A stretch of 24,490 bases of DNA, taken from the IMG/VR virus record IMGVR_UViG_3300009164_000345, positions 1 through 24,490 of that record. One strand, 5' to 3'. Within the stretch, counting starts at the first letter, position 1, and every line of letters starts with the position of its first letter. Both the position numbers and the translations under genes were made by a program. The stretch is from a virus. Shown here in pieces: positions 1 to 12,160 of the stretch. A model generated the notes under the pieces. That model was not told where the DNA came from, made no database searches, and saw only the letters and a list, made by a program, of their open reading frames with translations.

Positions 1-367
1 GTGGATCATAACTGCCAGCATGCCATAAACCGTGTGTAACTACTGGAATGCCCAGTAACTCACTCATGTACTTTAGATTAATAATACCTGGATGCCAGGC
101 ATCAGTAAAGATAAAATGATCGCCAGCCTTGACGGATCCTGCACAAAAAAGTCTTCCAAGCTGTTCAACTTGGCTTGCCTTATAGATATTAGTGCCCCCA
201 AAATTGAGAAATGCACCAGGAGTAGTGGCGTTAGGAATATCATTAGGACCCGATATAACATGAACTTCATGTTCTGCCTTTCGTAAGAGTTCAGGTACAT
301 GAGTCTTCCATTGACCCGTGTACCTTGTATCTACTGCTTCTAAATCAACGAGAAAAATTCTGCTCAT
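1..367 (-). CDS. Probable GT-B-like glycosyltransferase, N-terminal part (cut by window edge)
   Basis: The frame is open from the ATG at 367 to the window edge, giving 122 residues with no stop, so the C-terminal part lies outside. The N-terminus (MSRIFLVDLEAVDTRYTGQW, then a basic segment ending in HEVHVISGP) looks like the first strand-helix-strand of a GT-B glycosyltransferase. A later GIPVVTHGLWHAGS stretch fits the acceptor-domain core. The start overlaps the preceding gene by 23 bp and no strong ribosome site is visible, so it probably relies on coupled translation. It is the last visible gene of the replication/DNA-modification run, which permits but does not prove a role in glycosylating DNA or a virion component. 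Family assignment is by fold impression only; no catalytic residues can be checked on the fragment. Confidence 0.5.
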   Translation of the reverse strand, partial: MSRIFLVDLEAVDTRYTGQWKTHVPELLRKAEHEVHVISGPNDIPNATTPGAFLNFGGTNIYKASQVEQLGRLFCAGSVKAGDHFIFTDAWHPGIINLKYMSELLGIPVVTHGLWHAGSYDP

Positions 368-632
368 TGCGTGGCCGGTAGGTGTTATTGCCGTTGCCGC
401 TTCGGTTAAATTCACCGCGAGGCTTACGGTCGCCATTCCATGGCTTCTTTGGACGAGTACTGTAATAGTAGTTGTTCCAAATTTGACTATTCCTATTGTA
501 GAGATTAGCTTCGTTAAAGTCGCACATCTCAAAGCGACAAAAATCTTGAAACTTTTCTAAGTCGTCAAACAGTTTGACAATGTCAGGACGATTTTCAAAG
601 TAGTTAACGTCTTTATAATTATTCTTAGCCAT
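345..632 (-). CDS. Small basic phage protein of unknown function
   Basis: A 95-residue protein with an ATG at 632 preceded by AAGGAAAG, a good ribosome site lying in the short gap after the upstream gene. The first half is acidic and aromatic (ENRPDIVKLFDDLEKFQDFC, then RFEMCDFNEANLYNRNSQIW). The last 35 residues are rich in Arg, Asn, Gly and Pro and look disordered and nucleic-acid binding. I do not recognise a named domain. It sits between the QueD-like gene and the glycosyltransferase-like gene and overlaps the latter by 23 bp, so it is almost certainly part of the same transcript. An RNA- or DNA-binding accessory role is only a guess from composition. Confidence 0.7.
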   Translation of the reverse strand: MAKNNYKDVNYFENRPDIVKLFDDLEKFQDFCRFEMCDFNEANLYNRNSQIWNNYYYSTRPKKPWNGDRKPRGEFNRSGNGNNTYRPRNEQNFSR

Positions 633-643
633 AATAGCTTTCC

Positions 644-1033
644 TTAGTACTTAATAAATGAACCATTTTCCCCGTCTTCGGAGACCTCAATCCAAACCTC
701 ACGATTTGGATACCTTTGTGAAATCTGAGCATACAAGTCATCGCTCATCATCTCGCAACTTTTAAAATCAAGTTCTAAAATGTCTTTACTGTAAAGACTT
801 TCGCACCAGCGTTTAAACTGAATGAACTCAATATCGCGATCGTTGTGTGTAACACCGATCCATACTTTAAAGTGAAAAATATGTCTGTGTGCATTAGCTA
901 AGAATGACACATCATATTCTCCTGCGGTACATAAATTAGGATCAGTTGCCGCTGCCGGGTAACAATGCATACCTTCTTTGCGGAACGTGACCCAGATCAT
1001 TTTATTAGGTCTAATATCTTGTTTAATAATCAT
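644..1033 (-). CDS. QueD/6-pyruvoyl-tetrahydropterin-synthase-like T-fold protein (tentative)
   Basis: A 129-residue protein whose order of motifs matches the QueD/PTPS tunnelling fold. There is a first strand ending in a His (VTFRKEGMHCY, H23), then H49-R-H51 followed by an alternating beta strand (HFKVWIGV) in the place of the QueD HGH zinc pair. Next come DIEFIQFKRW, like the QueD DF..LK segment, then SCEMMSDDL, like the T.E.LA helix start, and a last strand WIEVSEDGENG. The catalytic Cys before the HGH pair and the LDH motif are not seen, so QueD chemistry is uncertain; it may bind a deazapurine or act in a variant step. Its ATG overlaps the stop of the upstream gene (ATGA), three genes after the DpdA-like gene, and that context supports a 7-deazaguanine link. 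Alternative: an unrelated conserved phage protein. Confidence 0.5.
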   Translation of the reverse strand: MIIKQDIRPNKMIWVTFRKEGMHCYPAAATDPNLCTAGEYDVSFLANAHRHIFHFKVWIGVTHNDRDIEFIQFKRWCESLYSKDILELDFKSCEMMSDDLYAQISQRYPNREVWIEVSEDGENGSFIKY

Positions 1034-1554
1034 TTTACAATTTCGTCGTTTTTGTATTGATTCCAGTCTGTAAACTTACTACGATCCATTAGTGTGTGTA
1101 GACTGTGGGACCACACACCGGGATTAGTTGCTTTAAAATCTTTATCATCGATTTTAAGCATTGTATTATAATTCCATAATTTAATGTAAGGAATTGGCAC
1201 ACGAATCTGTGGAATAAAATTATTACTCTCGCATAGTCCACTATCGTGAAATTCTTCTAATTGATTAATAGGAATGTCGAGACTGCATAGGTAATCCTTT
1301 TCAAGAAAGAATCGAATCATGTCTTCCCATGCTTTGTGCTCGTCGTAGTTTCGGGGATTGTAGCTGTGATTAGCACCAAAAAAGATATGCTCGATTCCGT
1401 CAGGGTGTTTATCGAAATGATAAGCAATTTCGTCAACAGGTTGCACACCTGTAACAAACAGAGTACGCATACCAAAAGCAGGAGTATGTTCTACTTCTGT
1501 GCCTACAAAGAAGGTAATGTCTTCTTTAACGCCATCCGTATAATCACGCTTCAT
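1030..1554 (-). CDS. Conserved phage protein of unknown function in the dpdA operon
   Basis: A 174-residue soluble protein starting at ATG 1554. It overlaps the upstream 80-residue gene by 11 bp and the downstream QueD-like gene by 4 bp. Striking segments that look conserved are FFVGTEVEHTPAFGMRTLFV (residues about 15-34), IEHIFFGANHSYNP, a central SLDIPINQLEEF, and the C-terminal DKDFKATNPGVWSHSLH before a charged tail. There is no CxxxCxxC, so it is not a radical-SAM QueE. No signal peptide or membrane segment is seen. Position between the BPSL0761-family protein and the QueD-like protein suggests a role in the same pathway, possibly base modification. I cannot name its family, and my impression that relatives occur in T4-like marine phages comes from memory, not a search. 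Confidence 0.75.
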   Translation of the reverse strand: MKRDYTDGVKEDITFFVGTEVEHTPAFGMRTLFVTGVQPVDEIAYHFDKHPDGIEHIFFGANHSYNPRNYDEHKAWEDMIRFFLEKDYLCSLDIPINQLEEFHDSGLCESNNFIPQIRVPIPYIKLWNYNTMLKIDDKDFKATNPGVWSHSLHTLMDRSKFTDWNQYKNDEIVK

Positions 1555-1786
1555 TTTTCTTTTCCTCGTAAAGTTTAAACATTCGAGTTACATCTTCCAT
1601 ACGTTCTTGAAATACATGTGGTGCTAATTCGCTTACTGCTTTCATATCCCATTCACTGGGATAATGACGCAGGCAATATCTTGCGCTGTCTTTAATTGTT
1701 TTTGGAACTCGAGGAGTAGACAGAATCTCCAATAAAAACTTTTGAGTCTGTACTACTGCACGATACCGTTCGTCGGGTAATGTCAT
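1544..1786 (-). CDS. BPSL0761-family small protein
   Basis: An 80-residue protein with an ATG at 1786 overlapping the dpdA-like stop (ATGA). The pattern MTLPDERYRAVVQTQKFLLE, then PRVPKTIKDSARYCLRHYPS and a helical acidic tail, matches the small bacterial BPSL0761 family (start M..P.ER.RAV..T..FL, later a LLRHYP motif). The molecular role of that family is not known to me. It is mostly found in bacterial chromosomes, so its place inside a phage DNA-modification operon suggests acquisition from a host. Translational coupling on both sides argues it is expressed with the DpdA-like enzyme. Confidence 0.65.
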   Translation of the reverse strand: MTLPDERYRAVVQTQKFLLEILSTPRVPKTIKDSARYCLRHYPSEWDMKAVSELAPHVFQERMEDVTRMFKLYEEKKNEA

Positions 1787-3393
1787 TTAACTTCTGCTTC
1801 AAGTTGATCAAGTTTAATAGCTTCTTCTTCGCTGAATTCTTCGGCGTGTTCTAATTGTACAGTATCTTCCTCTACTATGTCAAATAGATTGGCAAATTGT
1901 GTACTTGCATTAACGGTCTTCTTACCAGTGGCACCTCTGGTACCAATAATGCTCATCCAAAAGCGACTGTATTCTTCAACAATAGCATCAGCTATCCCTC
2001 TATCCGAAGTTGCAAAAATAGCTTCAATAATATCTTTAACAAATAATCTATCAAATTTTTCTTGTACTAACATAGCAGGAACATTTCCTGCATCGTATTT
2101 TCGATTAGCTTCTTGAACAGCATTAATGTGACTCCACACATTATGCCCCATTTGGATTGCATAGCTAAAAGAATCCCAACTGGTCCTGTTACTAATTTTG
2201 CCCAACTTATTAAGATCTGGCGGAATAATCCAATCGTTCTTATTATAGGGATCTGGTGCCGCAATTCCTGGCTTAGGAGTGCCAGCACCGTAAATGCAAA
2301 CATCTTTCATCAACACACCGTCCATTAATGGACTTGTTTCAAAATTCTTAAAGATTCCATCTTGTATTACAGCGTCTTGAAACAGCCTTGTATCCTGTGC
2401 ATACTTTTTATCGTCTGCGCTGGGAACCATTCGATAGACCCATTTGGTGCGATCAACTGTTTCTGTTTGAATATAAATTTGGCCGTTAGCAGTGGCAAGG
2501 AACGGACTTGCACAGTCAAACGATATTGTAAAGTTAGGATTGTGGTATTTACGTACAGCACGTTGAATATCAGTTAATAGCGTAGCCCACTCAAGTTTGC
2601 TTGTACCGAGAAAGTGCATCCAATCTTGTTTACCTGTTTCTAACAATCCATCAAAACGTAATGCTACTAATCTTTTAAGAACAAGGTGTACGTCACACAT
2701 ATTCTGTCCACCCATGCCCCAACCATTGAAGTGATTGCTGAACTTCTTAGGATCGCAGTAGTGCTTCATACGTTGATACCAATCTTCGGCATCTGCGTGA
2801 TTTTCGCCTTGCAATACGTTTAGGAACTTACAGTTACCATTACGATTATTAATAAAATAATCATTGTTGATATAAGTGCCTTGAACTGCTTCAGCATACG
2901 AACTAATCTTAGTAGCGGCAACACCTGCTGGACTACGAGCAACCCACGCAGGAATATCAAGGCCCATGCCATAGTCCATTAACGTGTCCATCCAAGTAAG
3001 CACTTGTTTACGTTTTTTCATAGCCTGTGGGCAGTTAGGATCTTTCCAGTCAGCAGGCCAAACACCCTTACCAATCTGGAATCCGCCCGAGTCACCTAAT
3101 ACCCAAGATGTTGCTCTGTTCCTATTGCGGAACATATCCTCGCTGTCATCTTGTTTGTTTAAATCAAGATTGGCATGCCCTGCTGAATATAAACAATGAT
3201 CGTAATAAAACGCACCCTTGTCTGGTTCGAGGTAATTGAGACTTTCAACACCGTTCTTAAAACTTGTAGGAATACGTGCCGGATCTACGTAATTTCCGTA
3301 ACGTTGTTTTCCGATAAATGTGCTATAGAACCCTGAGGTTGCCGGCAAGAAGTATGCGTAATCGTTTTGTGTTGCTGTTAAGTTTTTATTCAT
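1783..3393 (-). CDS. dpdA: DpdA-like 7-deazaguanine DNA transglycosylase (TGT-fold)
   Basis: A 536-residue protein with the tRNA-guanine transglycosylase (TGT) motifs in order. DSGGFQ at residues 101-106 carries the conserved active-site Asp. VLQGENHAD near 194 matches the TGT VQGG segment, and GWGMGG at 224-229 matches its (A)IGG substrate loop. HFLGTSKLEWA near 260 stands for YLMGVG.P, and SFDCASP at 291-297 holds the nucleophile Asp (D293). The TGT zinc motif CxCxxC is absent and the C-terminus is long and acidic, as expected of phage DpdA proteins, which exchange guanine for a 7-deazaguanine in DNA rather than in tRNA. It overlaps its upstream membrane-protein gene and downstream BPSL0761 gene by ATGA. 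The modification would protect phage DNA from host nucleases (known for the family). The exact base installed cannot be read here. Alternative: a tRNA-acting TGT, less likely given the context. Confidence 0.82.
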   Translation of the reverse strand: MNKNLTATQNDYAYFLPATSGFYSTFIGKQRYGNYVDPARIPTSFKNGVESLNYLEPDKGAFYYDHCLYSAGHANLDLNKQDDSEDMFRNRNRATSWVLGDSGGFQIGKGVWPADWKDPNCPQAMKKRKQVLTWMDTLMDYGMGLDIPAWVARSPAGVAATKISSYAEAVQGTYINNDYFINNRNGNCKFLNVLQGENHADAEDWYQRMKHYCDPKKFSNHFNGWGMGGQNMCDVHLVLKRLVALRFDGLLETGKQDWMHFLGTSKLEWATLLTDIQRAVRKYHNPNFTISFDCASPFLATANGQIYIQTETVDRTKWVYRMVPSADDKKYAQDTRLFQDAVIQDGIFKNFETSPLMDGVLMKDVCIYGAGTPKPGIAAPDPYNKNDWIIPPDLNKLGKISNRTSWDSFSYAIQMGHNVWSHINAVQEANRKYDAGNVPAMLVQEKFDRLFVKDIIEAIFATSDRGIADAIVEEYSRFWMSIIGTRGATGKKTVNASTQFANLFDIVEEDTVQLEHAEEFSEEEAIKLDQLEAEVK

Positions 3394-3740
3394 ATTAAAT
3401 GTTGTGCCAATACCATACAGCTAATCCATGCCCATATAGTGTTAAATCCCACTAATGTAGGTAATAGTTTCTTTTCACTGGCCCAAATAAGTGTAAGGCT
3501 TGTTGCTAATGTAAAGAAATACAACCACCAAATTTGTATACCAAATATTAAGCCAGGAATAATGATACAAGCCTTAGCCGCCCAACTGGCAAACTCTACA
3601 CGATTGTAATCAGTCCAATATTCCTTTGTAAACCACATGCCATAACATTCTTTCATTTTATCAAATCCTATATGGCGATATACAGCGCCACATAGAACTA
3701 AGAATACTAAACAAGCAGATAATATCTGTACACTATTCAT
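3390..3740 (-). CDS. Small integral membrane protein of unknown function
   Basis: A 116-residue protein with about four hydrophobic segments (residues 5-21, 52-70, 71-87 and 93-113) and a short polar loop near 22-50 containing RHIGFDKMKECYGMWFTKEY. No named domain is recognised. The ATG shares its A with the clamp stop (TAATG) and its stop overlaps the DpdA-like start (ATGA), so it is a tightly coupled member of the replication/modification transcript. A membrane protein between a clamp and a DNA transglycosylase could tether replication to the membrane or be an unrelated passenger; the sequence does not decide. Confidence 0.7.
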   Translation of the reverse strand: MNSVQILSACLVFLVLCGAVYRHIGFDKMKECYGMWFTKEYWTDYNRVEFASWAAKACIIIPGLIFGIQIWWLYFFTLATSLTLIWASEKKLLPTLVGFNTIWAWISCMVLAQHLI

Positions 3741-4471
3741 TATTTGCTTTGTGCTGGCAAGATATAGTTATATTCTGTCATTCCGCTATCCACAGTAATT
3801 TGCATAGCGCCTTGATCGCTAATACGCATAGTCTTGTCGCCTGACAAATTTAAAATTTGCATAACTTGTGTAACCGGCCATGACCATGTGCTTTTTAGTT
3901 TTCCACCTGCGGCATTTTGGAATACAAAACTACCAGCGTGTGTACTTGCATCACCGAAGCTGAAAATTAAGTTACCACTGTCTGTGCTAACTTGAAATAC
4001 TGATTCTTCACTGTGCGCTTGACTTTGAAATTTCAATTTCTGAATACTGGTAACAGCAGGTGCAAATTCGATATCCCATGCAGCCCCTTTGAACTTGGCA
4101 CTTTTTAATTTTTCATTAATAATTTCTGTGCTCATAAAGCGATAGTCATTACTAAAGTCGCCACCTGCATTTTCAAAGTGAATAGTTGTAGGAATATCTA
4201 CACCGTTACGTTGCTGGCGAATAACTTCAATCTTAGCATCGTCCTTGTATTCTGGACACTTTAAGTGGATGTTAAGTTTATCTAAGTTAGGCATACCAAA
4301 TGTGCCTTCAAACTCGTCTACTACTTTGTGCGTTTTAGCAGTTAAAATAACTGAACGGTCTTCAGCCATGGATTCGATAGTTGTATCTTTTTCTGTGCCT
4401 GTGATTTTAACAATAGGCAAAAAGCCTAATGCGTGAGTATGTGTTACGATGTCTTGTAAAATGTCTTTCAT
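3740..4471 (-). CDS. 45: DNA polymerase sliding clamp (T4 gp45-like)
   Basis: A 243-residue protein close to the 228 residues of T4 gp45. It has the beta-rich, repeated two-domain character of trimeric phage clamps. An N-terminal half with FLPIVKITGTEKDTTIESMA and DEFEGTFGMPNLDKLN is followed by a C-terminal half ending in KTMRISDQGAMQITVDSGMT and a final beta strand YNYILPAQ. Such clamps encircle DNA, hold the polymerase, and in T4 also activate late transcription. The ATG at 4471 follows AAAGGA at 4478-4483, and a CTAAATA late-promoter-like element lies at 4499-4505. It is directly downstream of the polymerase gene; no clamp-loader genes are in between or elsewhere in the window. Confidence is high because position and size agree with the fold pattern. 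Confidence 0.85.
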   Translation of the reverse strand: MKDILQDIVTHTHALGFLPIVKITGTEKDTTIESMAEDRSVILTAKTHKVVDEFEGTFGMPNLDKLNIHLKCPEYKDDAKIEVIRQQRNGVDIPTTIHFENAGGDFSNDYRFMSTEIINEKLKSAKFKGAAWDIEFAPAVTSIQKLKFQSQAHSEESVFQVSTDSGNLIFSFGDASTHAGSFVFQNAAGGKLKSTWSWPVTQVMQILNLSGDKTMRISDQGAMQITVDSGMTEYNYILPAQSK

Positions 4472-4506: not shown

Positions 4507-7176
4507 TCAGAAGTCAAATAATTTGTTGAAAGTATTTGTCTGTTCGGTTGATCTGATGTCCCAGTTTAGGACACCGATTAGGTTTTCCAACTTATTATCA
4601 ATAATAGTTGCTTCCATTTCTTCGTGATTAAATGGTAAATCTTTAAACCATTGGGGTAGTCTAAGTTCATCTACTGGATAAGCCACACTGGTAAATCCCA
4701 TAGGATTATCTTTGAGTTTACAAACAATGACTTTTTGACCGTCAGTAACACTCATAGAATACTTGTCATCAAACATACGCTTTAGAGTATTCCAGTTGAG
4801 ACTTGCACGAACGTGTCCGGGCATGTTAGTCTTTCCTGCTTTCTCTTCCTTGCCGCGATATGCTGAAATATTGTTAGCACGTTTAGGCGAGCCTTTCTCC
4901 CAACCTGGACGCACTTTAAAATCAGTTCTAAAATTTGTTATAAAGTTTAATACTTCTGATTCCTCACTGCCTGTTAATACTTTCTCTAAAACATCACTTA
5001 AGAAGTTTTGAATAAATTCTGGCGTATCACTACGCTTTAGATCCAAGCCCATGGCTTTGATTTTGCCTGGCTTGCCATCTACGTCAAGCCTTTTGCCTTC
5101 TTTGTCATAGTACAGAACAGCATAACGCTTCTTAGTAATAAACAGGCCTTTACTTGCAACAATCTCACGACCTGCTTTGATAACTTCGCCACGTGATTTA
5201 GGGCAATGAAATCCGTCTTGCATAAATTGTGGGAATGTGTTATTAACTTCTTCACCAATTTGGTCGTATAGTGTAACTACAGTTTCTTTTGACCACGGTA
5301 ACGACCCCGAGTCGATATCTTTCTTAAGCGTCTTATAAGCAGAAAAATAACAGCTATCAGTATCACCGTAGATAATAGATTTTCCAACATGGTTGTTTTC
5401 TCCAGTAATGATTTCGTTGACTTTGCCAGCCATATGTCGAGCAATAGCACGACCAGTTAGTGTGGTACTTTGTCCAATACGTTTGTCAAAGAAGCGGCAA
5501 TGCGGGTTAAGAATAGCACCATACAAACTATTTAGGTTAATTTTCTTAACCAGCTGTCGTTTGTCCCAGTATTCTTCTTCAATCTTATTACCTGCAGAAA
5601 TACAATCTTTAAGTTTGGCCTGCATTTCCTTACGTTCAGCATACCAACGTTTTAATAAGCCAGGAATAATACCTTCTTTTTCATATGTGAAGATAGTGCC
5701 ATTAGCACTGAGCATTAGACTTTGATGACTTTCAAAGATTAACTTATAGACTTCGGCAGCACTGAGTACGTTTTTGTCACCACCTTCCCAATCGATAGTA
5801 ATCTCTGTACCAATTTCTTTATTCATAGTAGCAGTATATTCTAAACTACCAAATATACCTTCCCATGCAGCCGCAAAACTCTTGCCTTTTGATACTTGCC
5901 CTGCAATGTAATCCTCAGTCATTGTTTGACGTAGTTGTCCCACAATAGTTTCTGGACCCATATTTAATGCTCTAATCGCACTGGGATACAGACTGTTAAT
6001 ATCTAATGATCCAATCCACTCGTGAATACCTTCTTTAGGATAAGCAACATACGCACCAGCGGCTCCTGCATCCTCTTCTTGACTGTCATCTTTTTTAACA
6101 CGATTCGGTACTTGAAAACCTCTACGATGACTTTCGTTAATGATAGCCTGTTCAGTTACAGCCACAGCTCCCATAGTTGTAGTAATTAATACTGTACATT
6201 CGTGCGCCAGTGTGTTAGCAAGGTCAAGGAATTTAAGTTTGTTATCAAGTTTGTTTAACAATGCACAGTCTTGCCTATTATATTCAACAAACTTACGGAA
6301 GTCATTGTTGTATAATTGATCAAGGGTGCCTTCGTAAACAGTCTTAGATTCACCTATTTCCATTTCTCCAATTGCGTCTAATCGATACGTGTGTCGTTCT
6401 TCATAAGTGTACTTTCGATACAGTTCAAGACTGTCTAAGTGTACACGACCAACCAGGTCATAAGTAGTGGCTTTCTTTCCATACTTCTCATACTCACGTT
6501 TCTTAGGATATTGATCCCATAGACACATTCTGCGTGTGTCATCTTTACTGAGTACTTTGGTAATACGATTGACAGTGTAAGGCATATCGAAGCCTTCCGA
6601 ATTCCAACCACTAAGTACATCCGCATCTTGAATAAGATTTAAGAATGTATCCAGCATGTCTGCTTCGTTATCAAAAATATGTGTATTAGGGAATTCTTTA
6701 ACCTGTTCATGTGCTTCTTCTATACTCATTCCCTTGGGAGGAATTGCCAAACAGACCATGGTCTGCATCCATTGTAAGTAAACAGCAATCGCAGTAATTG
6801 GCATAAATGCATCTTCTGGAGAAGCATAACCTCGTTCTGGATCAAAGTCTACCTCAATGTCCCAAAACGCTACATTGAGCTTGGGTGCATCTTGGTTAAT
6901 ATAGTTTTCGCTAAGACAAGCGACTACAGGGTTAATGTCAGCTTCATAAAGCTGTTTCCCACTGTTAATTTTAACTTCTTTGTGGAAGTCTTTGGTGTTT
7001 TTACAGACAATACGACTTAGAGGTTTTCCGTAAATTGATTGGAATTTACCTCTGGAATCTTCGTAATAGAAAGTGTAACGTACAGGGAATTCTTTAAATT
7101 CTCTTTTACCGTCTTTGTTTCTTTCTACTACTCGAACAATATCTGTATCTCTATCGAAATATGCGTCTACGTACAA
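4507..7176 (-). CDS. 43: Replicative DNA polymerase, family B (T4 gp43-like)
   Basis: An 889-residue polymerase, close to T4 gp43 (898). The 3'-5' exonuclease has Exo I WDIEVD (about 105-110), Exo II with GWNSEGFDMPY (about 190-200) and Exo III YNRQDC (D about 303). The polymerase domain has motif A SLDINSLYPSAI (D about 392), motif B KINLNSLYGA (about 545-554) and motif C IYGDTDSCYF (DTD about 605-607). All catalytic Asp residues are present and no intein or split is seen. I choose the TTG at 7176 because AGGAGA at 7183-7188 is 6 nt upstream; the longer frame starts at another TTG (7194) without a ribosome site, and no ATG is available. A rare TTG start may hold down synthesis, echoing the tight control of gp43 in T4. 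The clamp follows directly. Confidence 0.95.
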   Translation of the reverse strand: MYVDAYFDRDTDIVRVVERNKDGKREFKEFPVRYTFYYEDSRGKFQSIYGKPLSRIVCKNTKDFHKEVKINSGKQLYEADINPVVACLSENYINQDAPKLNVAFWDIEVDFDPERGYASPEDAFMPITAIAVYLQWMQTMVCLAIPPKGMSIEEAHEQVKEFPNTHIFDNEADMLDTFLNLIQDADVLSGWNSEGFDMPYTVNRITKVLSKDDTRRMCLWDQYPKKREYEKYGKKATTYDLVGRVHLDSLELYRKYTYEERHTYRLDAIGEMEIGESKTVYEGTLDQLYNNDFRKFVEYNRQDCALLNKLDNKLKFLDLANTLAHECTVLITTTMGAVAVTEQAIINESHRRGFQVPNRVKKDDSQEEDAGAAGAYVAYPKEGIHEWIGSLDINSLYPSAIRALNMGPETIVGQLRQTMTEDYIAGQVSKGKSFAAAWEGIFGSLEYTATMNKEIGTEITIDWEGGDKNVLSAAEVYKLIFESHQSLMLSANGTIFTYEKEGIIPGLLKRWYAERKEMQAKLKDCISAGNKIEEEYWDKRQLVKKINLNSLYGAILNPHCRFFDKRIGQSTTLTGRAIARHMAGKVNEIITGENNHVGKSIIYGDTDSCYFSAYKTLKKDIDSGSLPWSKETVVTLYDQIGEEVNNTFPQFMQDGFHCPKSRGEVIKAGREIVASKGLFITKKRYAVLYYDKEGKRLDVDGKPGKIKAMGLDLKRSDTPEFIQNFLSDVLEKVLTGSEESEVLNFITNFRTDFKVRPGWEKGSPKRANNISAYRGKEEKAGKTNMPGHVRASLNWNTLKRMFDDKYSMSVTDGQKVIVCKLKDNPMGFTSVAYPVDELRLPQWFKDLPFNHEEMEATIIDNKLENLIGVLNWDIRSTEQTNTFNKLFDF

Positions 7177-7258
7177 GTTAGTTCTCCTATGCAATTTACG
7201 GCTTGCAAATACCTGCTTTGCGGATTATGGCCTCGCCTGCCTTCTATGTTATATTTAA
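7177..7258 (-). promoter_or_regulatory. Polymerase leader: late-promoter-like TTAAATA, short hairpin and strong SD before a TTG start
   Basis: TTAAATA at 7252-7258 overlaps the stop codon of the upstream small membrane protein. The leader of about 75 nt then contains a weak 5-bp hairpin (GCAAA 7205-7209 with TTTGC 7217-7221) and the AGGAGA ribosome site used by the TTG start at 7176. In T4 the gp43 leader is a translational operator, so a similar role is possible, but no homologous hairpin is recognised here. Confidence 0.35.
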
Positions 7259-8277: not shown

Positions 8278-9849
8278 TTAGAATCGAAACGCTGATTTAA
8301 TCCTTGCAAGGATTTCGTCGTCTTGATAACGAACACTTTCTCCTGCAAAATTACCAATGTCTTTATTAACTGCTTGTTGAGCAGGAGTCTGTGTTGAACC
8401 ACCTGTTAACGCTGCCTTTTCTTTTTCTAATCTTGCAATGATCTGCGAATTCATTTGTGGATACTTCTTATATTTGGCTAATTGAGCATCAATCTCTGCT
8501 GCTTTTGGATTAGCCGCTGGACTTGCTGCCTGACCACCTGCCGCGGGTGCCTGTGCCATTTGTGTTGCTGTAGGACCACCTTGACCACCACGGCCTGCGC
8601 CAGCTGTACTTGTGCCTACTCCGGATGTAGTAGTTACACCCATTTTTTGTGCAGCCGCTTGTAGAGCTTTTGTCGTTGCAGGACCAATTTGACCATCAGG
8701 TGTTAAACCGTTGTTTTTCTGGAATAACTTAATAGCATCTGGCGTAGTCATCTTTAATTGATTAGCAATTGACTGACCAACTGGATCTACTTTGAATCCA
8801 GGTTTTGCTGCCGCCGGCTTTGCTGGACTTGCTGCCTGACCACCTGCTGGCTTACTGCCTGCTACAGTCATACCTGCTTCAGGTGCAGCACCCGGCGGCA
8901 ATTCTAAAGGAGCATCTGCTACGCTTGTATATTTTTCACCTGTCTCTGGATTAATACCTGCAGGTACTTCTGCTGGCTTAGTTGGTGCAGCTGGACTTGC
9001 TGCCTGTGCTGGTTTGTTCTTAGGAAGATTAGGATTACTTCCTGGCACATACGGAGTGCCGTCATCATTAGTTGCTGCAACTCCGCCTGGGCCTGTAGTA
9101 AGTTTACTACCATCGCCCATGTCTTGTGTTTTAGTCTGATTCTTAGGAAGATTAGGATTACTTCCTGGAATGTAAGGAGTACCATCATCGTTAGTTGCCG
9201 CTGATGCGCCTGTCTTTGGATCAGTAGTTAATTTGCTACCGTCACCCATATCTTGTGTATTTCCTGCAGCCGGGCTTGCCGCCTGACCACCGGCCGCTGG
9301 AGCTGCTGGAGCTGCTGGTGCTGCCGCTGGGTTAGTAGCTGCACCACCTCGACTTAACCCACCTTGTGCTACAGCTGGTGCCGCCGCTGGTTTACCTTTG
9401 TTAGGAGCTCTCATTAAAATGTACTGATCGTTAATATCAGGTTTGCCACCACCCTTAGTTAACCATGCTTGATCTTCTGGACTCATAGCTGCAAACTTAG
9501 TAGCATCTGCGCCCTGATAAGGATTAGCAATCGGAGCTTCTTCTAAACCAAATTCTCTTAAAAGCATTTGAGCAATAGAACTGTTAAAAACAATACCTTC
9601 GTCAGTTTTCTTTTTACCCGTGTCTAATGTTTCCTTGCAATCAGCCACCATTTGTTTTAGTTCTTTCTGATCACAATCAGGATGCATTTTACAAATTTCT
9701 GCTGCGGATTTTCCATCCTGACACATTTTTTTAACGTGTGACATTGGCGGGCATTTCTTTTTGTCAGTGTGTACTTTCTCTTCAGATTCCATTAGATTTT
9801 GCTTATTATTAATAAGTTCTAATTTCTGCATTAATGCTTTTAAGTCCAT
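8278..9849 (-). CDS. Low-complexity, peptidoglycan-binding-domain protein (probable virion or lysis-associated)
   Basis: A 523-residue protein. The frame is open 31 codons further up, but I choose the ATG at 9849 because a late promoter (9875-9882) lies between. Parts in order: a Cys-rich N-terminal segment (KKCPPMSHVKKMCQDGKSAA, then EICKMHPDCDQ), a PYQGADATKFAAMSPEDQAW region, a long Ala/Pro/Gly linker, two tandem 40-residue repeats (9016-9258), and then a peptidoglycan-binding type 1 unit (AIKLFQKNNGLTPDGQIGP, about residue 380). The rest is a linker with repeated GGQAASPA and a short basic C-terminus. The binding unit would hold the protein to the cell wall; no catalytic domain is visible. 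It is the last gene of the leftward accessory block and ends at the bidirectional terminator. It could be an internal virion protein injected with DNA. Confidence 0.75.
   Translation of the reverse strand: MDLKALMQKLELINNKQNLMESEEKVHTDKKKCPPMSHVKKMCQDGKSAAEICKMHPDCDQKELKQMVADCKETLDTGKKKTDEGIVFNSSIAQMLLREFGLEEAPIANPYQGADATKFAAMSPEDQAWLTKGGGKPDINDQYILMRAPNKGKPAAAPAVAQGGLSRGGAATNPAAAPAAPAAPAAGGQAASPAAGNTQDMGDGSKLTTDPKTGASAATNDDGTPYIPGSNPNLPKNQTKTQDMGDGSKLTTGPGGVAATNDDGTPYVPGSNPNLPKNKPAQAASPAAPTKPAEVPAGINPETGEKYTSVADAPLELPPGAAPEAGMTVAGSKPAGGQAASPAKPAAAKPGFKVDPVGQSIANQLKMTTPDAIKLFQKNNGLTPDGQIGPATTKALQAAAQKMGVTTTSGVGTSTAGAGRGGQGGPTATQMAQAPAAGGQAASPAANPKAAEIDAQLAKYKKYPQMNSQIIARLEKEKAALTGGSTQTPAQQAVNKDIGNFAGESVRYQDDEILARIKSAFRF
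9016..9258 (-). repeat. Two tandem in-frame repeats of about 40 codons
   Basis: Each unit runs from TQDMGDGSKLTT to NDDGTPY(I/V)PGSNPNLPKN. The units are nearly identical except for a variable middle (DPKTGASA versus GPGGV). The DNA keeps long identical stretches, so the copy number could change by recombination or polymerase slippage. Confidence 0.9.
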
Positions 9850-9874
9850 TTTGTTCCCCAAATTTCTTATACTA

Positions 9875-9882
9875 TATTTATG
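9875..9882 (-). promoter_or_regulatory. Late promoter (CATAAATA) of the peptidoglycan-binding protein gene
   Basis: CATAAATA matches the T4-type late consensus at seven of eight positions. It lies 26 bp upstream of the ATG at 9849 in an intergenic region. The following bases (TAGTATAAG) recur after the late promoter at 24326-24333. Confidence 0.6.
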
Positions 9883-9976
9883 CTCACTTCCAGGATTCTG
9901 AGTAGCGAATTCAGCCGTCCCGCGCCAGCAGCCTGCGCACACTTATATAACGCAAAGGTCCTAAGGTAGTGTGTTC
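9883..9976. other. Non-coding spacer with rRNA-like words and a 6-bp hairpin
   Basis: This gap between two minus-strand genes has no credible gene. On the plus strand it holds GCCAGCAGCC (9924-9933), identical to part of the conserved 16S 530 loop, and GGTCCTAAGGTAG (9957-9969), identical to the conserved 23S helix 71 region that is also the core of the I-CeuI site. CACACT (9938-9943) pairs with AGTGTG (9968-9973) around the second word. It may be chance, a remnant, or a small RNA. Confidence 0.45.
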
Positions 9977-10651
9977 TTATTGTTCACCTTTTGGTAAAAC
10001 GTAAACTTTGTTCCCTGCAAGAATACCAATTAATCTGCCAATACTTCTAATTCCAAGCATAGCAAGTGGAATAGCATACATTGTACCGCCACGTGGTCTA
10101 ATACCGCCTGGCTCTAAGTGAACCATTTCGTAATCTTTTCCATCAATTGTAACAGTCTGCGCTTCCCTATTGGCTGCATCAACTGTGGGCAGTGATCCGC
10201 CTACAAGCGGCTTAGGTGCTTCGGGAGCAGATGGCTCAGCTGGAGTATTTGGTTTGCCTGTTAGACGATTAATATTTGGATCAGGTAGTGAGCCGTCTGC
10301 GTTAGGCACTACTCGTTCCATTACTTTTTTTGCTACAATACCAGCAAGTTGATCCGCACGATCTTTATATCTGCTATTACTCTCTGCAAGTTCGTTTTCA
10401 ACAGCTTTAAAATATTTGCCAATCATACTGGGCTTTGCGCCTGTTGCTACATTTAATACTGGACTGGTAATAGTTTCTCTTTCCTCTACTGAGTCATTAT
10501 GGTAGACTGCAATACTTTCTGCTTGAGTTAAACGATTTAACGGACCTTGCCCTTCTCTAACTACTTTAACAAACTTTGACATACTATCAACACCTTCTAC
10601 AGGTTTTGATGCGGCACCGTCAATTGCCTGTAGAATTTTTTTCATGTCCAT
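9977..10651 (-). CDS. Conserved phage protein, probably virion-associated, unknown function
   Basis: A 224-residue protein starting at ATG 10651 (an in-frame ATG two codons later is possible), with AGGG close upstream and only 3 bp after the previous stop. The N-terminal part has VREGQGPLNRLTQAESIAVY and a helical region EAVENELAESNSRYKDR-like in character. A Pro-rich linker near 130-155 follows, then a C-terminal beta-rich domain with KDYEMVHLEPGGIRPRGG and AMLGIRSIGRLIGI. The GPLNRLTQAE phrase is familiar to me from marine phage proteins encoded near head genes, but its function is unknown. It belongs to the same low-complexity, tagged-protein block as its neighbours. Confidence 0.7.
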   Translation of the reverse strand: MDMKKILQAIDGAASKPVEGVDSMSKFVKVVREGQGPLNRLTQAESIAVYHNDSVEERETITSPVLNVATGAKPSMIGKYFKAVENELAESNSRYKDRADQLAGIVAKKVMERVVPNADGSLPDPNINRLTGKPNTPAEPSAPEAPKPLVGGSLPTVDAANREAQTVTIDGKDYEMVHLEPGGIRPRGGTMYAIPLAMLGIRSIGRLIGILAGNKVYVLPKGEQ

Positions 10652-10654
10652 GAT

Positions 10655-12160
10655 TTAGCCCTTTAGACGACCATCTTTTTCTGCTGACTTTAACATGGCT
10701 GCACGATCTCCGTAGCTACCACGCTTGACATCTTTAGCCGCAGACTTCTCGCCCTTGGTAGGATTCTTGACATGCTTTAATGGATCAAACTTGTCGCCTT
10801 CATACATACTACCACATTCTTTCAAGCCATGTACTGGACATGACTTACCTTTAGCAGAGTGATTGCATTTTGCTGTAGCTTCTTTAACTTTGGCAAAAGG
10901 ATTAACACCTTTCTGCGGACCTGCTTTTTTGTTAGCGGCGGCATCTTTCATTTTTTCTTTCTTGTTGCCATCATTGTCAAGGTCTAAGAAGTCTGGCTTT
11001 GAGCCTTCTTTAACACTGTTAGGATAGCGTTTAGCCAGGCGTTGAGCTTCGTCGGGCTTAGGACCATATGCAGGATCGGGCATATCATAACCAAGTTTAT
11101 CTTTGATTTTGTTGATTACACCCGGTTCTGTTCTGTCTACATAGTTGTTTTGACCGCGAGCATCCATTGACCATGCACCAGCGGCAGCAGCGGGATAGTT
11201 CTTGGCAGAATACCCTTGCCCTGCCATCTTGTCAAGACTTCGTGATGTAGCAAACTGCTGGTCCGTGTTTGGAGTTTTGTAATTGTTGGCGTCTGGACTG
11301 ATAGCACTGGGTCCTGCTTGATTTCTCTTTGGACCTGCTGTACCGGGCCCAAACTCTTCAGGTACCTTTCCTTTCTTATTGCCTTCTTTCATTGCAGGAT
11401 TAGTTGGTCCCGGAGTTTGCGGACTCCAACGCTTACCTTTGTGTGGGCCTGATGTTACAACAGGATATTGACCATCTTTACCCTTCGGAGGAGGAGCAGT
11501 AGCACCGTCTGGATCCATAGGAGCCATTCCTTCTTTAACTGCTTTATCTCTATTGTCAAACTTCTCGCTGTCTTTCATGCCCCATGTCTTGGCACTCTTT
11601 GGACTTTGTTTTAGTTTTGGAGACTGTGATTTCTTCTCAGCGGCTGACTGTGATTTAGCATGTGTCTTAACGCCCTTGCCTGACTTCTCTTCAGCCTCAC
11701 CGTCGTCTTTATAACTTGTATTCTTATGAACTACACCTTTGTCAGTTTTAGTTAATTCGCCTGTACGAGTTTTCTTAGTGTCGCCTACTTTAGCTTTGTC
11801 ATCAAATGCTTCGTCAAGATCCTTCTCGTTTTTCTTTTTAAGTTTGTTTAACTTGACTTTAGCCTCAGTTAATTTTCGTTGAAATTGTTTACGGACATCT
11901 TCAGTATACATATCAGAATTTTCAATCTTATTGCCATACTCGCTAAATTTCATCTCGTACTCTAAGTAGTGATATACGCTGGCAATATAGTCAGCTGATT
12001 TAGTAATCTTAGCTTGTACCCAACCTTCAAGCTGGTCACCGTCTTTGATCATTTTAAATAGCTTGAAGCTATAGTTGGCCATCTTATACAGATCGGCACG
12101 AGCCATCGCAGCTTCTTGGTCATCTGGATGGGGATTATTCATCATATTCATTCCTGGCAT
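10655..12160 (-). CDS. Lys/Gly-rich, modular, probable virion-internal protein
   Basis: A 501-residue protein with ATG 12160 preceded by GGAG. The N-terminal helical domain (about residues 20-110) contains GDQLEGWVQAKITKSADYIA and the sequence VYHYLEYEMKFSEYGNK, a module I associate with marine T4-like phage head-region proteins. The remainder is charged low-complexity sequence with recognisable inserts. These include KAVKEGMAP-type linkers, an EF-hand-like PDFLDLDNDGNKKEKM (about residue 395) with the Asp/Asn spacing of a calcium loop, a Cys/His cluster CNHSAKGKSCPVHG (about 433-446), and a basic C-terminus ending KRGSYGDRAAMLKSAEKDG. No enzyme domain is seen. Scaffold-like or internal-head function is inferred from composition and neighbours. 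Confidence 0.7.
   Translation of the reverse strand: MPGMNMMNNPHPDDQEAAMARADLYKMANYSFKLFKMIKDGDQLEGWVQAKITKSADYIASVYHYLEYEMKFSEYGNKIENSDMYTEDVRKQFQRKLTEAKVKLNKLKKKNEKDLDEAFDDKAKVGDTKKTRTGELTKTDKGVVHKNTSYKDDGEAEEKSGKGVKTHAKSQSAAEKKSQSPKLKQSPKSAKTWGMKDSEKFDNRDKAVKEGMAPMDPDGATAPPPKGKDGQYPVVTSGPHKGKRWSPQTPGPTNPAMKEGNKKGKVPEEFGPGTAGPKRNQAGPSAISPDANNYKTPNTDQQFATSRSLDKMAGQGYSAKNYPAAAAGAWSMDARGQNNYVDRTEPGVINKIKDKLGYDMPDPAYGPKPDEAQRLAKRYPNSVKEGSKPDFLDLDNDGNKKEKMKDAAANKKAGPQKGVNPFAKVKEATAKCNHSAKGKSCPVHGLKECGSMYEGDKFDPLKHVKNPTKGEKSAAKDVKRGSYGDRAAMLKSAEKDGRLKG

Follow-up and report, generated by a model that had tools for sequence, protein, structure and literature searches.

A DpdA-like protein with a putative polymerase-type clamp peptide, and a probable QueC-less route to its base, in a T4-like virus fragment

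The window analysed here spans the whole of an IMG/VR record (IMGVR_UViG_3300009164_000345, 24,490 bases), a fragment of a T4-like virus with 33 genes, and it holds between positions 644 and 3,393 a cassette that begins with the gene for a 536-residue DpdA-like protein. The locus bears on two questions: by what means, and at what stage, DpdA picks out phage DNA over that of the host, and from where the modified base would come. Fold, active-site residues, the content and order of genes, the matching motif and co-variation were observed here, and they lead us to lean, with some reserve, towards a DNA-guanine transglycosylase that is tethered to the sliding clamp and supplied by a pathway without QueC, the chemistry and the clamp binding both being predictions. 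The clamp tethering is the new point that the sequences suggest, and the most testable one. If true, a polymerase-type clamp peptide in DpdA would provide a simple answer to the first question, namely modification at the phage replication fork.

The model of the 536-residue protein, built by AlphaFold2 (AF2) with 57 aligned relatives (pLDDT 87.8, pTM 0.84), has the fold of the tRNA-guanine transglycosylase (TGT) superfamily. All 22 PDB structure matches with E <= 0.001 are TGT enzymes, and the viral structure matches include DpdA2 of Vibrio phage nt-1 (R9TGF0, 8.4e-10) and a 259-residue protein of Cellulophaga phage phiST. Comparison of the family with a six-sequence TGT-family profile by hhalign gave 96.4% and an E-value of 1.4e-9, and pairs D101, D146 and D293 with D89, D143 and D264 of E. 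coli Tgt. The aligned motifs are DSGGFQ in both families, the aspartate of LDIP (D146 and D143), GWGMGG with GYAVGG and FDCASP with FDCVMP. Each of the three aspartates is invariant in 57 of 57 aligned sequences and the TGT zinc motif CxCxxC is present in none of the 57, in agreement with the sequence-only reading, which had proposed a DpdA from both catalytic aspartate motifs and the missing zinc motif; that proposal is now backed by the fold, the active-site alignment and the genomic association with 7-deazaguanine genes. PhiXhv-12 encodes a distant relative that retains CxCxxC. Very likely the protein is a DpdA-like enzyme of the TGT superfamily, and highly probably its substrate is DNA. 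In IMG/VR, 288 close relatives were confirmed, of which the best 80 loci were examined for gene order, and at least 594 loci were reached when the alignment served as query. The contigs of the relatives are T4-like and also encode FolE, QueE, a 129-residue QueD-fold protein and a GT-B glycosyltransferase.

Within the window, the pattern F..[LM]F[DEGST] occurs in only two of the 33 genes: that of the polymerase, which ends in FNKLFDF, and dpdA, which encodes FANLFD at residues 500-505, flanked on both sides by model segments with pLDDT <50, as in a flexible tail. A looser form of the motif is found in 41 of the 57 DpdA tails, compared with 5.8 on average, and 13 at most, across 500 shuffles. 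Across 18 loci, F..[LM]F[DEGST] falls within the C-terminal 80 residues of 32 out of 325 gene products, and polymerase or DpdA accounts for 31 of them. The variants agree between the two proteins of one phage, polymerase given first: SLDDLFE and TLDELFE (DpdA2) in Acidovorax phage ACP17, SLESLFG and SLEELFG in Xanthomonas phage X1, TLDDFFS and SLDSFFD in Synechococcus phage BUCT-ZZ01, NNTDLFDW and NNNDLFGW in Vibrio phage 2.275.O, LQAFFEF and LNEFFEF in locus L153. Through the pairs in ACP17, X1 and BUCT-ZZ01 the match spans DpdA subfamilies without a mutual profile match; the sequence profile of the window family found nothing in the genomes of nt-1, phiST, ACP17 and BUCT-ZZ01. In T4, gp43, gp55 and gp33 bind the clamp gp45 via such peptides, an internal copy of which is still functional (PMC2988020), and the alpha-glucosyltransferase also binds gp45 (PMC13216743). 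These comparisons point to DpdA as a probable client of the sliding clamp, on which its FANLFD, a peptide similar in kind to the polymerase C-terminus, would dock. We propose that such docking would let DpdA exchange guanine for a 7-deazaguanine base in freshly copied phage DNA near the fork; protection of that DNA from host nucleases would presumably be the benefit. BUCT-ZZ01 also encodes, between folE and dpdA2 (L112 5388-6731), a second glycosyltransferase-like protein ending in SLEDFFND, which resembles TLDDFFS of its polymerase, and this protein may be another clamp client.

The genes and motifs of the region are as follows.

4507-7194, minus strand: family B (T4-like) DNA polymerase (Pfam PF00136, 1e-35; phrog_262, 8e-202)
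4510-4530, minus strand: last residues of the polymerase, C-terminal peptide NTFNKLFDF, presumed sliding-clamp-binding motif (C-terminus read)
3740-4471, minus strand: sliding clamp, in the gp45 position (phrog_12062, 2.8e-36, function unnamed)
3390-3740, minus strand: 116-residue membrane-like protein between clamp and dpdA (open reading frame; kept in 22 of the 80 close relatives)
1783-3393, minus strand: predicted DpdA-like DNA-guanine transglycosylase, 536 residues, TGT fold, with D101, D146 and D293 (model and profile alignment)
1879-1896, minus strand: FANLFD, DpdA residues 500-505, putative clamp-binding motif in the low-confidence tail (motif scan)
1544-1786, minus strand: BPSL0761-family protein, 80 residues, accessory (NCBIfam NF041728, 4.2e-17, 61.9 bits, cut-off 35)
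1030-1554, minus strand: 174-residue protein, fold without assignment, with conserved KIDDxxFxATNPGVW (alignment)
644-1033, minus strand: 129-residue T-fold (QueD/PTPS-like) protein, candidate decarboxylase of 7-carboxy-7-deazaguanine (CDG) (AF2 model; phrog_17812)
345-632, minus strand: 95-residue protein with basic C-terminal end, position conserved across the family (open reading frame, synteny)
1-367, minus strand: GT-B glycosyltransferase, N-terminal part, cut by the window edge (start codon read; Pfam Glycos_transf_1 in relatives)

The reading frames of dpdA, the BPSL0761 gene and the 174- and 129-residue genes thus all stand where the sequence-only reading had put them. It had also joined dpdA to its neighbours and to the clamp by gene overlaps. 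Overlaps are present, ATGA at dpdA/BPSL0761, 174/129 and 116/dpdA and TAATG at clamp/116, but that between the BPSL0761 and 174-residue genes is 11 nucleotides, and the 116-residue protein, which is not a core part of the cassette, stands between clamp and dpdA. The clamp itself is identified by its position beside the polymerase, by synteny and by the call made in that earlier reading, with no named family behind the label. The order in the best 80 loci is polymerase, clamp, dpdA, BPSL0761, 174, 129, 95 and glycosyltransferase, with some insertions and losses, and this recurrence in close relatives argues that the arrangement is not due to chance.

Exchange of gene blocks among the relatives also connects dpdA with the clamp. 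Two types of relative can be told apart by dpdA, one window-like with a median identity of 81% and one divergent at 39%. Among loci whose polymerase identity lies at 77-83%, uncorrected for relatedness, clamp identity is 63-76% beside window-type dpdA (n=54) and 52-55% beside the divergent type (n=20), with no overlap, while the 129-residue protein shows almost equal similarity in either type (79 and 77). The clamp therefore tracks the dpdA type and the 129-residue protein does not, implying joint inheritance of clamp and dpdA to the exclusion of the polymerase and 129-residue genes on either side, a pattern that fits co-adaptation. The coupling to the replisome, drawn in the sequence-only reading from gene order, may accordingly be given a physical basis by the polymerase-like peptide and the exchange of the clamp-dpdA block. 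The best surviving alternative takes FxxLFD in DpdA as a chance hydrophobic-acidic stretch, or one that binds another partner, and the co-exchange as mere linkage. The motif is indeed short and missing from some members, and clamp and dpdA are neighbours. Set against this are the excess over shuffles, the near-exclusive occurrence in polymerase and DpdA, and the agreement of variants within each phage, FF versus LF included, across distinct DpdA subfamilies; the polymerase likewise adjoins the clamp, yet is not co-exchanged with it. We regard this alternative as unlikely, though with a share of the doubt that deserves attention.

Several observations weigh against a clamp-tethered DpdA. Searches with the 536-residue protein against Pfam, PHROGs, PADLOC, NCBIfam and the sequences of the PDB returned nothing significant, so that its identity rests on the fold and on profile-profile comparison, and its model reaches moderate TM-scores with TGT (0.35-0.43, normalised to the length of the query). 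The motif is missing from 16 of the 57 DpdA tails, and a subgroup (L120, L166, L171 and L194) has short tails without it. The DpdA-like proteins of nt-1 (DpdA2), phiST, MA9V-3 and PhiXhv-12 also lack the peptide, and those of nt-1, phiST and PhiXhv-12 indicate that clamp binding is not required by all DpdAs; in nt-1 the main base, dPreQ0, accounts for only ~0.11% of G (PMC6884629). In T4, the modification level reached by the alpha-glucosyltransferase is set mainly by something other than its contact with gp45 (PMC13216743). Finally, since clamp and dpdA are near neighbours, their exchange as a block could reflect physical linkage alone.

The second question concerns the source of the base. 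The sequence-only reading had placed folE, queE and queC outside the window, which is borne out, the window being the whole viral fragment, and had supposed that the precursor is scavenged or its genes encoded elsewhere. For folE and queE the latter holds in relatives, where both lie within ~10 kb downstream of dpdA, but not for queC. In the 41 loci whose sequence downstream of dpdA reaches at least 8 kb, folE is present in 31 and queE in 28, their products matching the FolE and QueE models, and queC or queF is found in 0 of 41. Large relative contigs carry folE in 14 of 20 cases, the remaining six being fragments of <=63 kb, and QueC above the cut-off in 0 of 20. One of the 14 (G003 44345-44737) has an in-frame TGA inside the folE match, the sole such case. 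Contigs G001, G002 and G007 carry a separate gene of the QueD family, as do PA5oct, ACP17, phiST and BUCT-ZZ01. Of 70 loci that extend at least 5 kb past dpdA on the downstream side, 67 have the 129-residue gene and 67 the glycosyltransferase, and in ACP17 the genes form a compact cassette in the order queD-folE-174-dpdA2-glycosyltransferase-129-queE. This gene content makes it rather strongly probable that the precursor is made by a QueC-less pathway, in which FolE, then QueD (of phage or host) and then QueE would lead to CDG. Vibrio phage 2.275.O is the exception, with a preQ0/preQ1 pathway predicted from its genes: its dpdA, of the window family, adjoins queF, a YhhQ-like transporter gene, queC and folE, and the 129-residue family is not present. 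The gene after dpdA in this phage (L083 7723-8832) is amidoligase-like (PF12224, 1.8e-4, just below the cut-off).

The 129-residue protein would complete this pathway. Its AF2 model (pLDDT 92.4) matches QueD/PTPS structures in the PDB, the zinc triad H23, H49 and H51 is invariant, together with E94 and E119, in all 54 sequences of the family, and the zinc histidines align with those of E. coli QueD by hhalign. At the site of the catalytic cysteine, four residues ahead of HxH, all 54 members have leucine (L45), and the family occurs in genomes that carry true QueD too. The description as QueD-like in the sequence-only reading thus stands for the fold and fails for the function: because the catalytic cysteine is missing and true QueD co-occurs, the protein is not QueD. 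The family occurs in genomes that have FolE and QueE and lack QueC. Among complete phage records and large contigs (22 in all), 19 carry the family and no full-length QueC, and the remaining three have QueC at E <= 3e-51 and no member of the family; D479 and X1, both with the family, each show one weak partial QueC match. Nor was the family found in CAjan, 9g, Dp-1 or HVTV-1, which are reported with the QueC pathway (PMC6884629). This mutual exclusion suggests that the 129-residue protein stands in for QueC in the scheme of the pathway. A decarboxylase that yields plain 7-deazaguanine fits best from the sequence evidence: the protein most likely strips the carboxylate from CDG, and DpdA would insert the resulting 7-deazaguanine into DNA (dDG), a product base that we propose tentatively, at slightly short of an even chance. 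Cui et al. in 2023 reportedly predicted a CDG decarboxylase, DpdL, to which the 129-residue family may correspond, and described the bases dDG and dCDG. In Vibrio phage Bakedbeans (L221 8212-9363) and Chryseobacterium phage MA9V-3 (L225 7395-8276) the domain is fused to other N-terminal parts, for which no relation to the pathway was found and which are uninformative on its substrate.

In most members the cassette also encodes a GT-B glycosyltransferase, which may carry out a further step on the DNA. The family is ~365 residues long in relatives, and the window holds the N-terminal third only. Five of nine members match Pfam Glycos_transf_1 (PF00534; best 8e-12), and R222, E226, K227 and E282, conserved donor-site residues of this GT4-like family, are invariant. 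The gene adjoins the 129-residue gene in Phosso, where it is annotated as a glycosyltransferase, and neighbours DpdA2-type genes in ACP17 and X1. A role confined to cell-surface glycans was considered; in ACP17 and X1 the gene adjoins dpdA2 and the 129-residue gene, which speaks against it. Six phages (phiST, RHph_I1_18, Bakedbeans, Ahp1, D479 and MA9V-3) have the 129-residue family and not this glycosyltransferase, so the two are separable.

Plain 7-deazaguanine offers no obvious acceptor for a glycosyltransferase, and this counts against dDG as the end product. In an alternative scheme DpdA would insert CDG itself (dCDG), and the 129-residue protein would have another role, for example activation of the carboxylate so that the glycosyltransferase could join it to a sugar. 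The pathway ends at CDG, the carboxylate would be a chemically usable acceptor, and the glycosyltransferase, present in 67 of the 70 loci, stands beside a different type of DpdA in ACP17 and X1. Against it stand the six phages that keep the 129-residue family in the absence of this glycosyltransferase, and we hold dCDG to be rather unlikely. A broader proposal is hypermodification borne by the replisome, with DpdA and in some phages also a glycosyltransferase on the clamp, CDG-derived 7-deazaguanine inserted and glycosylated to a base not described so far, and the 129-residue protein and glycosyltransferase as a portable core serving at least two very different DpdA families; taken together, this is speculative and quite doubtful.

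Conventional modification of the preQ0 type would have the 129-residue protein as QueD, QueC from the host or scavenged preQ0, and DpdA inserting preQ0 to give dPreQ0 or dADG. In known DpdA phages the base is mostly a preQ0 derivative, and some of these phages may depend on the host (PMC6884629), and the fold of the protein is that of QueD/PTPS. The loss of the catalytic cysteine in 54 of 54 members, the separate QueD genes in ACP17, phiST, BUCT-ZZ01, PA5oct, G001, G002 and G007 and the mutual exclusion of QueC and the 129-residue family oppose this scheme, making it improbable. The bases dPreQ0, dPreQ1, dADG and dG+ named in the sequence-only reading are not the default expectation, because full-length queC is missing from every tested genome with the 129-residue gene. 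That the enzyme modifies tRNA in aid of phage translation, as the significant PDB matches, all tRNA enzymes, might imply, is very improbable in view of the missing TGT zinc site (0 of 57), the position of dpdA beside polymerase and clamp, the clamp motif, and the presence of nt-1 DpdA2 and the phiST protein among the viral structure matches.

The proposed system, a clamp-tethered DpdA fed by a QueC-less pathway, shares features with several known ones. Phage DpdA and DpdA2 (Hutinet et al. 2019, PMC6884629) likewise combine a TGT-superfamily enzyme with 7-deazaguanine synthesis genes, and nt-1 DpdA2 is a structural match; the window family differs in its greater length, in its clamp-type peptide, which nt-1 DpdA2 lacks, and in that genomes with the 129-residue gene have no QueC. 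Pseudomonas jumbo phages of the PA5oct/Paride type have the order polymerase-clamp-dpdA-glycosyltransferase-129-queE, a dpdA 36% identical and the clamp peptide in both polymerase and DpdA; unlike in the window, the 174-residue homologue lies elsewhere, no BPSL0761 homologue was found near dpdA, and folE and queD are in a separate cluster. In phiST, folE, queD, queE, a homologue of the 129-residue protein (32% identity) and a TGT-fold protein lie within ~4 kb with no queC, but its DpdA-like protein is short (259 residues) and of another subfamily, and this glycosyltransferase family and the clamp peptide are lacking. phiST is reportedly one of the dDG/dCDG phages of Cui et al. 2023. Besides DpdA1 and DpdA2, subfamilies DpdA3 and DpdA4 have reportedly been defined. 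T4 alpha-glucosyltransferase, gp43, gp55 and gp33 are phage enzymes that modify or act on DNA while tethered to the sliding clamp (PMC2988020, PMC13216743); the T4 modification is of glucose onto 5-hydroxymethylcytosine, and binding is experimental in T4 and predicted from sequence here. A literature search that covered few subscription papers found none reporting contact between DpdA and the clamp, and none joining 7-deazaguanine phage DNA with a glycosyltransferase. The DpdA-like family is large, occurs in freshwater phages and has been overlooked by the Pfam, PHROGs and NCBIfam models. Isolated phages (PA5oct/Paride and Phosso) hold relatives of it, and ACP17, X1 and BUCT-ZZ01 share the logic of the pathway. 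Used alone to query IMG/VR, the DpdA of PA5oct or Phosso retrieved no loci or two, and comparison of the window with phage records at the DNA level gave no match.

The remaining genes of the cassette are less well defined. The 174-residue protein has no family or PDB match, which leaves a guessed link to QueE unsupported; it is probably a member of the pathway, since in ACP17 its gene (L111 7216-7698) is placed between folE and dpdA2. The BPSL0761 gene is present in 65 of the 80 close relatives and nearly absent from the divergent group. Relative to one locus, L006, positions 1-3393 of the window form a mosaic at the DNA level: the clamp, BPSL0761 and 129-residue genes are 96-98% identical, and dpdA, the 174-residue gene and the glycosyltransferase gene just 80-82%, with abrupt shifts inside dpdA, so that these three look allele-shuffled. 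A purine phosphoribosyltransferase gene accompanies the cassette in freshwater relatives (L021 15361-15849) and in BUCT-ZZ01 (L112 3471-3932), where it is annotated as a xanthine-guanine phosphoribosyltransferase. L021 also carries, between dpdA and the BPSL0761 gene, a gene of the flavin-dependent tryptophan-halogenase family (9623-10840; PF04820, 4.2e-30), and L019, L020, L029, L031 and L032 have insertions of equal length at this place, with a spacing similar to that in L021.

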